DNA of 35,493 nt from Oligoflexia bacterium (lineage in GTDB: Bacteria; Bdellovibrionota; UBA1018): positions 1-35,493 of the forward strand of contig JAMPXZ010000008.1 in assembly GCA_023700925.1 (NCBI GenBank). The letters are read 5' to 3'. Shown one piece after another: positions 746 through 4,237 of the stretch (position 1 is its first letter; the number at the start of each line of letters is the position of its first letter). The notes under the pieces were generated by a model. The model was given only the letters and a program-made list of their open reading frames with translations, made no database searches and had not been told where the DNA came from. Both the position numbers and the translations under genes were made by a program.

Positions 746-2101
746 ATGTTCGAGCGTTTTCACCTCTATTTTTTGATCGGCGTCTGCGCCGTGAGCACCT
801 TATGCCTGTCGGGCTGTCGGGCTCGCGCGCCCGCCGAGGAGAACCCTTCGTGGACTCCCCAGCCCACGCCAACCGCGACGATCCGGCCGCTGCAGCTCGT
901 GCCAACGGGTTCGACCTCGCTTTCGATCGGTAAGCGCCTCCGCTTCTCCGTCTCGGGCGGAATTCCGCCTTACAGCTTCGCGAGCACCAGCGGCAGCGTC
1001 GGCGCGACCGGCGAGTTCCAGGCTCCCTATCACACCGACCTCGTGACGGTGACGGTGACCGATTCGCGCGGAGCACAGACGCAGACCCTCGTGTCCATCG
1101 TCGCGGGATCGCTGCTGCTGCCGAACGATCCGATGTTTTCGCTCCAAAGCGCCCTTTCACGCGAAGGCGACCAGGACATCGACGCGCCCGAGGCGTGGGC
1201 CCTCCATCAGGACTGCCGAAGCATCCTCGTCGCGGTGCTCGACTCGGGGATCGATACCGAACACCCGGATCTGGCGGCGAACCTCTGGACGAACCCGGAG
1301 GAGTCCTATGCGGACGGAGTCGACGGCGACGGCAACGGCTTCGCCGACGATAGCCACGGCTGGAACTTCGTTGGCGACAACAATGACATCATGGACGAGA
1401 ACCTGCACGGCACGCACGTCGCGGGGATCATCGGCGCCGTGGGCAACAACGGGATCGGCGTTTCGGGAGTCTGCTGGCGGGCCTCGCTCGCCGCGGTGAA
1501 GTTCCTCGATGCCGACGGAGTGGGGACCTCCTCGGATGCGGTGGACGCGATCGACTACGCGATCGGCATCGGGGCCAAGGTCATCAACGCCTCCTTCGGC
1601 GGCAACACCTACAATCAGGCGGTCAAGGATGCCCTCGACCGGGCGAACTCCGCGGGGATCCTGTTCGTCTCCGCCGCCGGCAATGAAACCTCGGACAACG
1701 ACACGATCGCGTACTATCCCGGCAACTACGATTCGCCGAACATCGTTACCGTCGCGGCCACGACCGAGACCGATTCGCTCGCCTCGTACTCCAACTACGG
1801 CGTCACGCAGGTGGACCTTGCCGCCCCCGGCTCGAACGTGCTCAGCACCTTTCCGACCGTCGCCACCCCCGAGATGGTCAGCCGCGATAAGACCTCCAAC
1901 TACGAACGCCTCAACGGAACCTCGATGGCCGCACCCCTGGTCGCGGGGGCGGCCGCGCTCGTCTGGAGCTTCGAGCCCGCGCTCACCCATCTGCAGGTGC
2001 GCGCGCGCCTGCTCGAACGGGCCGACCCGGTGACCGCTCTGGAAGGCAAGATCAGCGGCGCGCGACGCCTGAATCTCCGAAAGGCCATCTATGTCCCATA
2101 A
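746..2101 (+). CDS. S8 family subtilisin-like serine protease, lipoprotein
   Basis: Catalytic motifs VAVLDSGID (Asp), HGTHVAGIIGA (His), NGTSMAAPLVAGAAAL (Ser). Signal peptide with lipobox LSGC. Ig-like segment before the catalytic domain. Confidence 0.93.
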   Translation: MFERFHLYFLIGVCAVSTLCLSGCRARAPAEENPSWTPQPTPTATIRPLQLVPTGSTSLSIGKRLRFSVSGGIPPYSFASTSGSVGATGEFQAPYHTDLVTVTVTDSRGAQTQTLVSIVAGSLLLPNDPMFSLQSALSREGDQDIDAPEAWALHQDCRSILVAVLDSGIDTEHPDLAANLWTNPEESYADGVDGDGNGFADDSHGWNFVGDNNDIMDENLHGTHVAGIIGAVGNNGIGVSGVCWRASLAAVKFLDADGVGTSSDAVDAIDYAIGIGAKVINASFGGNTYNQAVKDALDRANSAGILFVSAAGNETSDNDTIAYYPGNYDSPNIVTVAATTETDSLASYSNYGVTQVDLAAPGSNVLSTFPTVATPEMVSRDKTSNYERLNGTSMAAPLVAGAAALVWSFEPALTHLQVRARLLERADPVTALEGKISGARRLNLRKAIYVP

Positions 2102-2825
2102 CGCCAGAACGGTTCGGAAGAAGCTCGCCCGCCAGAAGGTCATCCGCACCATCGGGCTGATGACCGCCACCCTCGGAATGATCGTTGCCGCGGGAATCCT
2201 CTCACTGCAGGCAACGCTTCAGAGCTTTCTCGAAAGAGACCTCCCCCGCCCGGAGTCCCCCGGGACACCCGCGGCGGTGACGGGCCCGGCGCAGCCGCTT
2301 CCTCCGCGAGAAAGCCGGCTCGAGAAGGTGGACGCGGGGCTTCGCCCCGGAAAATTTTTTACCGCGCCGCGGACGCCGTTTTTCAAGATCCTCAACGGCC
2401 AGCCCGTGGTCAGCGTCGCCGAGACCCGGCCCGACGGCCTGGGCAACTTCACCCGCGTCACGATCGTGAAAACGCAGCTCAAGTACCCCCTGATCCGCGT
2501 GGAAGACCGCCTTCGCTCCGCCCCGCCCGAAGGCTCGGACGAAGCGGCCGAGCAGCTCCTCGCGCGCACCGCGATGGTCGCGGATCACCTCATGCTGACG
2601 CCGAATCCGCAGGTCACCGAGGAGGACCTCACGCGACTGGTGGCGTCACTCAACGAAGAGGCCGGAAGCTCCCACTATGAGATCCGCCGCACGAATCCGA
2701 ACTCCCGGATCTTCCTCATCGCCTTCGACGGCACCTCACCGCAGGAGCTGGAAGAGGTTCGCGCGCGGATCAGCGCGACGGGCCTGGCCCGCGAGGTCGA
2801 GCCTGACTACCTCGTCCACAACTGA
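2091..2825 (+). CDS. Membrane-anchored protein with C-terminal S8-propeptide/I9-inhibitor-like segment
   Basis: N-terminal TM helix (IGLMTATLGMIVAAGIL). C-terminus ...SRIFLIAFDGTSPQELEEVRARISATGLAREVEPDYLVHN resembles the end of subtilase prodomains (VExxEPNYxV). Overlaps the protease stop by 11 bp. Confidence 0.6.
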   Translation: MSHNARTVRKKLARQKVIRTIGLMTATLGMIVAAGILSLQATLQSFLERDLPRPESPGTPAAVTGPAQPLPPRESRLEKVDAGLRPGKFFTAPRTPFFKILNGQPVVSVAETRPDGLGNFTRVTIVKTQLKYPLIRVEDRLRSAPPEGSDEAAEQLLARTAMVADHLMLTPNPQVTEEDLTRLVASLNEEAGSSHYEIRRTNPNSRIFLIAFDGTSPQELEEVRARISATGLAREVEPDYLVHN

Positions 2826-2851
2826 GAGGACCGCGGGTGCCCCACCGCGCT

Positions 2852-2880
2852 TTGACAAGGGGGCAGGCGCGCCCTATAGT
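2852..2880 (+). promoter_or_regulatory. Sigma70-type promoter TTGACA-N17-TATAGT
   Basis: Perfect -35 (2852-2857) and near-perfect -10 (2875-2880) at 17-bp spacing, 34 bp before the ATG at 2915. Confidence 0.75.
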
Positions 2881-2914
2881 GATCGCAGCGTAAACCCCCA
2901 TCGGAGATCACTCA

Positions 2915-3157
2915 ATGTCGGATCAAAACATGAAAGAAGAGCTCGAACGGCTGCGTGCCGAAAACGCGGCGCTCAAGAACACGAAGGCGAAGGGGCTTTC
3001 GCTGAAAATCAGCGAAAAAGGCGGTCTCTCGGTCTATGGCCTCGGGCGTTTTCCGGTGACGCTCTACAAGGAACAGTGGACCCGGCTCCTGGACATGGCC
3101 GAGGAGATCCGTTCCTTCCTCAAGGCCAACGACTCGCAGCTGAAGACCAAAGAATAA
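2915..3157 (+). CDS. Small conserved protein of unknown function (KGGLSVYGLGRFPVTLYKEQW motif)
   Basis: 80-aa ORF with ggag SD and a strong promoter upstream; coiled-coil N-terminus (ELERLRAENAALK) followed by a distinctive, recalled-as-conserved motif. Confidence 0.75.
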   Translation: MSDQNMKEELERLRAENAALKNTKAKGLSLKISEKGGLSVYGLGRFPVTLYKEQWTRLLDMAEEIRSFLKANDSQLKTKE

Positions 3158-3242
3158 GCCTTCCGCGGGTATGGCCGTTGCACCCTTTCCGTCCAGCGTC
3201 CGGAATTCACCGACGCACAAGACGCAAAGGGAGATTTTTGCC

Positions 3243-3515
3243 ATGGCCAATCCGAATCTTTCAGAAAAGACCGAGTCCACCGCGAGTTCGATTCGTGACG
3301 CATCCGAGCGCTTCGCGCGCGAGGCGAAGTCCGATGCGAAGGACATGATCAATGACGCCAGCGAGGCGGCGAGCGAATTCTACGATCGCGCGAGCCTCTG
3401 GGTGCAGGACAACTACGGCAAGAGCATCGCCATCGTGGCGACCCTCGCCGCCGTCGGCATGTTCGGCTACGTCCTGGGGCGCAACCAGCGCTCGAAGGAT
3501 TTCCCTCAACTCTGA
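3243..3515 (+). CDS. DUF883/ElaB-YqjD-like membrane-anchored protein
   Basis: Amphipathic helical N-terminus and C-terminal TM IVATLAAVGMFGYVLGR with a GR end, as in YqjD-like proteins. SD gggag before the ATG at 3243; the ORF-track start at 3171 is too far upstream. Confidence 0.75.
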   Translation: MANPNLSEKTESTASSIRDASERFAREAKSDAKDMINDASEAASEFYDRASLWVQDNYGKSIAIVATLAAVGMFGYVLGRNQRSKDFPQL

Positions 3516-3531
3516 ATCCAGGGAGCCGCAC

Positions 3532-3927
3532 ATGCAAAAGCCCCTGAAAAACCCCCTTCCTCCTTTGGGCGGGGCGGCAGCCTCGCTCAAGAAGATCATC
3601 CGGCTCCAGCGCGATCTCGCGGTCCTGGACCTGGAGATGCGGACCCTCCGCCAGGCACGGCGGCTGGCCTGGGGCGGCGCCGCGCTCACGCTGGCGGTGC
3701 TTGGGGTTTTTCACGGCTTTTTCTGGCTGTTCCAATGGCTCCAGTCTTCCGGCTGGTCTCCGGGAGCCCTGGCCGCGCTGGCTTTTATCGGCTTCGGGCT
3801 CCCGGCCGCCGCCCTGGGCGGCTGGGCCCTGCGTCCTTCCGGAGCCACTCCTCACCGAGGTGAATATGAAGCTGATCGAGCCGGTCCTGCCGGCGAACGA
3901 GGCGACGCGCCTCCGACTCGTAGCTGA
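3532..3927 (+). CDS. YqjE-like/phage-holin-like two-TM membrane protein
   Basis: Two hydrophobic helices (AALTLAVLGVFHGFFWLFQWL, ALAALAFIGFGLPAAALGGWAL), directly after the YqjD-like gene. Confidence 0.5.
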   Translation: MQKPLKNPLPPLGGAAASLKKIIRLQRDLAVLDLEMRTLRQARRLAWGGAALTLAVLGVFHGFFWLFQWLQSSGWSPGALAALAFIGFGLPAAALGGWALRPSGATPHRGEYEADRAGPAGERGDAPPTRS

Positions 3928-4237
3928 GCTCGAAGAGCAGAGAACGCTCCTTCAGGCCCATCTGATGGACGCGGTCCAGGCATCACTGGACTGGACGCGC
4001 CTGCAACGCTGGGTCGCGCACCATCCCGTCCAGACAGCGGTCCTCACGGTGACAGGCCTCGCCGTGCTGGCGAACGCCCAGAAGCGCGGGCGCCTGAAGC
4101 CGCTCGCGCGATCGTTGACACGCACCTGGGCGGCGCGCGGCGCCGCTCCGCTTGACGGACGCCGGGTGCTCTGCGAGGCTCCGATCGATGAGCGCGCAAT
4201 CCCTTCTGCCAGCCCACCTCTCCGGGCCCGCGGCTAG
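3866..4237 (+). CDS. Small YqjK-like or hypothetical protein
   Basis: ORF MKLIEPVLPANEATRLRLVAELEEQRTLLQAHLMDAVQASLDW..., overlapping its neighbours on both sides; YqjK-like by synteny and helical content. Confidence 0.45.
   Translation: MKLIEPVLPANEATRLRLVAELEEQRTLLQAHLMDAVQASLDWTRLQRWVAHHPVQTAVLTVTGLAVLANAQKRGRLKPLARSLTRTWAARGAAPLDGRRVLCEAPIDERAIPSASPPLRARG

Follow-up and report, generated by a model that had tools for sequence, protein, structure and literature searches.

A steric chaperone is, as a rule, built into the very protein whose folding it guides. A natural departure from this arrangement is proposed here for an overlapping gene pair in a 35,493-nucleotide stretch of DNA (the window) from an Oligoflexia bacterium of the phylum Bdellovibrionota (contig JAMPXZ010000008.1), in which the gene of a lipoprotein protease of the subtilisin family (S8) is followed by that of a membrane-anchored partner. 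The closest described systems include: (i) the Aeromonas sobria protease ASP, which matures only with ORF2, the product of the adjoining downstream gene, a protein that touches the catalytic site through its C-terminus and inhibits the enzyme (half-maximal inhibitory concentration, 84 nM) (PMC5638518), (ii) CspB, in which folding is rescued by a prodomain provided in trans, whose C-terminal residues occlude the active site (PMC3567191), (iii) the lipase foldases (Lif/LipH), which are membrane-anchored steric chaperones classed with the subtilisin propeptides (PMC3352829, PMC13381987), (iv) the dentilisin complex PrcB-PrcA-PrtP of Treponema denticola, an acylated subtilase whose expression needs the operon-encoded PrcB (PMC8167434), and (v) the Plasmodium SUB1 propeptide-like protein, which is like a prodomain but has a gene separate from that of the enzyme (PMC6993865).

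The pair resembles ASP/ORF2 in combining a subtilase that lacks a propeptide with a putative helper gene directly downstream, an arrangement found here in five genomes. By contrast, ASP is extracellular and ORF2 is not described as membrane-anchored (PMC5638518), whereas the client here is a lipoprotein and the helper is anchored by a transmembrane (TM) segment; the helper also has demonstrable homology to a pro-region that a group of fused S8 proteases carries in cis. Lipase-specific foldases, like the partner, are membrane-anchored, acting as steric chaperones in the periplasm; however, their client is a lipase, and the partner has no match to the lipase-chaperone families of Pfam at an expectation value (E) <= 10. 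Dentilisin offers a further acylated subtilase that depends on an operon-encoded partner, comparable to the lipoprotein protease and overlapping partner gene of the window, but PrtP has a propeptide in its own chain (residues 19-158) and sheds the acylated end on activation, and PrcB is not identified as a prodomain (PMC8167434). The stand-alone I9 or propeptide-like inhibitors (e.g., the Plasmodium protein) likewise have genes separate from that of the enzyme, but are neither operon partners nor membrane-tethered stand-ins for a missing prodomain. The fused S8 proteases of Verrucomicrobiota (e.g., loci L017 and L061-L066) share a homologous pro-region, the catalytic domain and the same junction motif with the pair. 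These proteases are single polypeptides with the prodomain first and no convincing lipobox, whereas the split pair has the two parts in the opposite order, with a lipid anchor and, in some genomes, an immunoglobulin-like (Ig-like) segment on the protease.

The locus is likely a subtilase divided into two proteins, a lipid-anchored S8 protease without a prodomain and a separate, inner-membrane-anchored pro-region that would act on the protease. This reading is built on homology, gene order, conservation, a predicted fold and an association with the lipobox, from which we infer roles of the partner in folding, inhibition and release, as well as translational coupling of the two genes. A first-pass annotation of the DNA had already suggested that the prodomain was moved to a separate, overlapping, membrane-anchored product, a suggestion now supported by homology to fused proteins, a divided junction, recurrence and predicted structure; its two open reading frames (ORFs), their 11-bp overlap and the positions and residues that it quoted are exact. 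Both frames have a strong coding composition, with a GC content of 0.84 (protease) and 0.82 (partner) at the third codon position and of 0.50 and 0.48, respectively, at the second. Comparison with same-genus orthologues gives ratios of nonsynonymous to synonymous substitution rates (dN/dS) of ~0.22 for the protease and ~0.28 for the partner, indicative of purifying selection on both.

The origin of the partner emerges from a scan of 84,980 species genomes, for which partner sequences of three genomes were aligned as query. Outside of Bdellovibrionota, this query found single polypeptides of Verrucomicrobiota in which a TM helix, the motif FKYPLIRVED and the motif MVADH...EPD[FY] are followed by an S8 domain. 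In these fused proteins, MVADH...EPD[FY] directly precedes PNDPSF...DIDAPEAW (or a close variant) and the catalytic domain. A broader search matched the partner family in 33 of 195 Verrucomicrobiota genomes, almost always in long frames, and at the recovered loci S8 follows the pro-region, typically ~20 residues on and nearly always within the same ORF. The junction of the fused proteins reads EPDYI...PNDPxFxxLWGLHNTGQTGGxxDADIDAPEAW. Its two halves lie in two genes in the window, where the partner ends in VEPDYLVHN and the mature protease starts with LPNDPMF...DQDIDAPEAW.

By profile comparison, the homology of nearly the whole partner to the pro-region at the N-terminus of S8 proteases is unambiguous. 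Four split partners align to three fused pro-regions with hhalign at Prob 99.5 and E 2.7e-23 over profile columns 127-240; against 30 fused or orphan pro-regions the values are Prob 100 and E 1.8e-46, a figure favoured by the joint alignment of the rows. The resemblance that the first-pass annotation saw at the C-terminus of the partner is thus real and beyond chance, but it is not restricted to the last ~37 residues and extends upstream through the KYPLIRVED segment, so that the partner has the profile homology of a fused-type S8 pro-region over both this segment and the prodomain (hhalign; 34-sequence alignment). The fused pro-regions in turn match, co-linearly, Fervidolysin-type prodomains from the phylum to which the window belongs (Prob 94.7, E 1.3e-8), and the fused relative L017 scores 16.8 bits against PF22148, below the cut-off of 21. 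Short-frame Fervidolysin-type prodomains of related genomes (L031, L034 and L045) were considered as further split prodomains and rejected, as these are proteases cut by contig ends.

The protease is a member of the S8 family by its match to Peptidase_S8 (PF00082; 216.7 bits versus a cut-off of 21.8) and by its Asp-His-Ser triad and oxyanion Asn (D166, H221, S393 and N313), which are invariant across three split proteases; its nearest solved structure is that of deseasin MCP-01 (E 4.4e-80). The N-terminal zymogen organisation of Peptidase S8 is absent, as no prodomain family is matched in a Pfam scan of the protease, in agreement with the first-pass annotation, which had described an Ig-like segment in place of a recognisable prodomain. 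The Ig-like segment matches repeated domains in other proteins of the same genome (C102, C66 and C85) at 35-47% identity. As a substitute for the prodomain it was rejected, given that it matches unrelated repeat proteins and is missing from the protease of one of the five genomes (G063). Two cysteines common to the split proteases, C157 and C243 (1472-1474), are likely disulfide partners.

The partner has nothing significant among Pfam, NCBIfam and the PDB when compared by sequence. Its best-kept part between two congeners is residues 1-49 (76%), which includes the predicted TM segment; TM segments and lipoboxes were called by pattern and inspection. The AlphaFold2 model of the partner, based on the 34-sequence alignment, has a mean predicted local distance difference test score (pLDDT) of 88 and a predicted template modelling score (pTM) of 0.67. 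In this model the C-terminal domain follows the beta-alpha-beta-beta-alpha-beta arrangement of S8 prodomains and closes with a strand and tail. Its strands span residues 153-171, 197-200, 208-211 and 233-240 and its helices residues 177-190 and 219-229, and most of its 10-residue blocks are at pLDDT 90-97. The predicted topology fits an S8 prodomain while being shared with many unrelated ferredoxin-like folds, and is in this sense consistent rather than specific.

The split pair recurs in five of 369 genomes in a phylum-wide search, distributed among three families: the window genome (G000) and a congener (G001), two genomes of one family (G063 and G084) and one of another (G200). This bears out the gene pair as conserved, a survey that the first-pass annotation had proposed. 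Each of the five has a lipoprotein S8 protease without a cis prodomain followed, on the same strand, by a TM-anchored pro-region. The two genes overlap by 11 bp in G000, G001 and G200 and are separated by a gap of ~4 nt in G084 and ~42 nt in G063. The neighbours vary; inspection by eye shows, for example, uvrB beside the pair of G063 and a gene for ribonucleotide reductase beside that of G084. Because the flanking genes differ between genomes, the pair itself is the conserved unit. In a combined tree of pro-region and S8 domain, which is unrooted, the split group lies on one side of a branch with support of 89/86 (unstarred); a tree of S8 alone does not unite the split proteases, whose branches are long. 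Since S8 prodomains are generally found in cis, fission rather than fusion is the inferred direction on this unrooted tree.

A lipobox is present in all five split proteases (the fifth being L095/L111) compared to one, itself doubtful, of 76 cis-prodomain proteases from the recovered loci (43 of the fused type and 33 of the Fervidolysin type). In all five, the residue that follows the lipidated Cys is other than Asp. By the sorting rule of Escherichia coli, lipoproteins without Asp at this position go to the outer membrane; thus, the split proteases would be sent there, away from a partner anchored in the inner membrane. An N-terminal prodomain that is cut by autoprocessing would take the lipid anchor along, and supply in trans would therefore keep the mature enzyme lipidated. 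Dentilisin illustrates the alternative, as the propeptide of PrtP lies behind the acylated N-terminus, activation removes an acylated 15-kDa piece and other lipoproteins hold the mature protease (PMC8167434). Retention of the lipid is a likely reason for the split.

In the proposed mechanism, the partner would most likely meet the protease on its exit from the Sec translocon and would template its folding, as S8 prodomains do. The free C-terminal tail of the partner, EPDYLVHN, would hold the active site and mimic an already cleaved propeptide. The protease would depart to its lipoprotein destination, probably the outer membrane, with the partner remaining in the inner membrane and spatial separation taking the place of propeptide degradation. 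In this arrangement, activation may occur by separation from the tethered partner. The chances are evenly balanced that the pair is, in full, a tethered subtilase foldase system of its own origin, in which a fused zymogen was split and reordered, the pro-region was assigned to the inner membrane and the protease stayed a lipoprotein that is activated by moving off its inhibitor.

Several observations weigh against a two-protein subtilase. Foldseek comparison of the partner model to the PDB gives no S8 prodomain among the 50 matches listed, which are generic folds, many of them ferredoxin-like, at E >= 0.07. The partner has no match to PF22148 (Fervidolysin_NPro-like) or any other prodomain model of Pfam at E <= 10, and direct comparison of the split partners to the Fervidolysin-type profiles gives Prob 4. 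When both proteins are co-folded as a single chain (starting at window position 1100, with the overlap read through by a +1 shift, and 10 protease and 30 pro-region rows), both domains fold (pTM 0.61) and the tail has a pLDDT of 75 compared to 78 in the partner alone, with no confident docking in this model from unpaired and shallow rows. The lipobox association represents one or a few evolutionary events rather than five independent ones, as the split proteases form a single clade or come close to doing so. Lastly, three S8 proteases of the same phylum (L004, L120 and L131) have no recognisable prodomain and no detected partner; these are short, secreted and have almost nothing ahead of the catalytic domain. 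Thus, the lack of a cis prodomain does not alone imply that one is needed in trans.

These propeptide-less enzymes lend some weight to a different role, in which the partner is chiefly a stand-alone I9-like inhibitor that shields the envelope while the protease folds unaided. Propeptide-like inhibitors of subtilases are known (e.g., in malaria parasites, PMC6993865), and the partner is held at the membrane, the site that would need shielding. This role is nevertheless improbable, as the homology to pro-regions is whole-length and includes the upstream KYPLIRVED segment, for which an inhibitor has no obvious use, and the cis prodomains of S8 enzymes normally perform both jobs. It is very unlikely that the two are ordinary neighbouring genes, with the prodomain-like fold of the partner serving something else and their adjacency incidental. 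While orphan copies that have no adjoining S8 gene are found near trigger factor in Verrucomicrobiota and near aconitase and succinate dehydrogenase in G065, the pair occurs in five genomes of three families amid unrelated flanks, always with a protease that has no cis prodomain, and the fused relatives join exactly these two parts. That the split is an artefact, either an assembly frameshift or a pseudogene of one original gene, could be thought of from the broken frames at an apparently fused locus of G315, but it is refuted, to the point of being barely conceivable, by the gene order: the protease comes first and the pro-region second, the inverse of the fused genes, which no frameshift yields. 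The partner, moreover, has its own start, its own TM segment and a dN/dS of ~0.28, and the five genomes agree. A subtilase divided into a lipoprotein protease and a tethered pro-region is, thus, the preferred reading, and the coordinates of its parts are listed below.

Features of the protease/partner locus (window coordinates)
Feature	Position	Strand	Basis or remark
S8 (subtilisin-family) protease gene, 451 aa, lipoprotein without recognisable cis prodomain	746..2101	+	ORF; Pfam PF00082; nearest solved structure 3vv3
Lipoprotein signal peptide, lipobox LSG|C, lipidated Cys C24, next residue Arg, not Asp	746..817	+	sequence; lipobox shared by the five split proteases
Ig-like segment, about residues 45-122	878..1111	+	resembles repeats of further proteins in this genome; missing from G063 protease
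LPNDP, mature-enzyme side of prodomain/protease junction, equivalent of PNDPSF in fused relatives	1118..1132	+	junction table
C157	1214..1216	+	in all five split proteases and 1/26 fused Verrucomicrobiota proteases
Peptidase S8 catalytic domain; D166 (1241-1243), H221 (1406-1408), N313, S393 (1922-1924)	1220..2023	+	
11-bp overlap between protease gene end (stop) and partner gene start	2091..2101	+	ORFs; also 11 bp in G001 and G200
Trans pro-region protein gene, 244 aa, single TM	2091..2825	+	ORF; homology over nearly whole length to N-terminal pro-region of fused S8 proteases
Predicted TM segment, about residues 19-42, after Lys/Arg-rich N-terminus	2145..2216	+	sequence; model helix 3-49
KYPLIRVED segment, about residues 95-151	2373..2543	+	alignment; same place ahead of prodomain in fused proteases
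S8-type prodomain, residues 152-244	2544..2822	+	alignment, profile comparison, predicted fold
EPDYLVHN C-terminus, prodomain side of junction, ends where fused relatives continue into PNDP	2799..2822	+	

The principle of a prodomain or steric chaperone that acts in trans has precedent; new here is a form tethered to the membrane, whose client is a lipoprotein and whose origin is shown by homologues that are still fused. A natural gene fission with surviving fused relatives offers a clean comparison between the tasks that a prodomain has to perform in cis and those that it can perform in trans. The locus also offers a simple reason for such splits, namely that a protease can keep the N-terminal lipid that it would otherwise lose with its prodomain, and points to a possible activation by location, with a tethered inhibitor in one membrane and the lipidated enzyme sent to another. 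In addition, a protein family that goes unrecognised by both Pfam and NCBIfam gains a likely role.

The orphan TM-anchored pro-region proteins of Verrucomicrobiota are found at L086:1141-1797 (reverse-complement coordinates), L087:1150-1785 and L089:1174-1752, beside trigger factor and, in two of the three, a YbgC-like thioesterase; these are possibly trans prodomains or a repurposed fold. Another orphan, L110:2823-3437 (reverse-complement coordinates; G065:C84), is flanked by an aconitase gene on one side and succinate dehydrogenase genes on the other, and the same genome encodes elsewhere a lipoprotein S8 protease without a prodomain (L116, frame 2808-3935) that is a candidate client. At L112:454-2752 (reverse-complement coordinates; G315:C43), a pro-region is ahead of S8, the frames are broken near the junction and a stop lies inside the S8 part; the locus appears to be an in-cis relative that is a pseudogene or an assembly error. 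The Ig-like repeat pattern, GGxPPYxF...G.F.AP...VTVTD, occurs in several large proteins of the window genome (G000:C102, C66 and C85) as well as ahead of the protease (window 878-1111). Just past the protease/partner pair, at window positions 2852-2880, is a near-consensus sigma-70-type promoter (TTGACA-17-TATAGT, 11/12), which suggests that the small gene downstream (2915-3157) has a promoter of its own.
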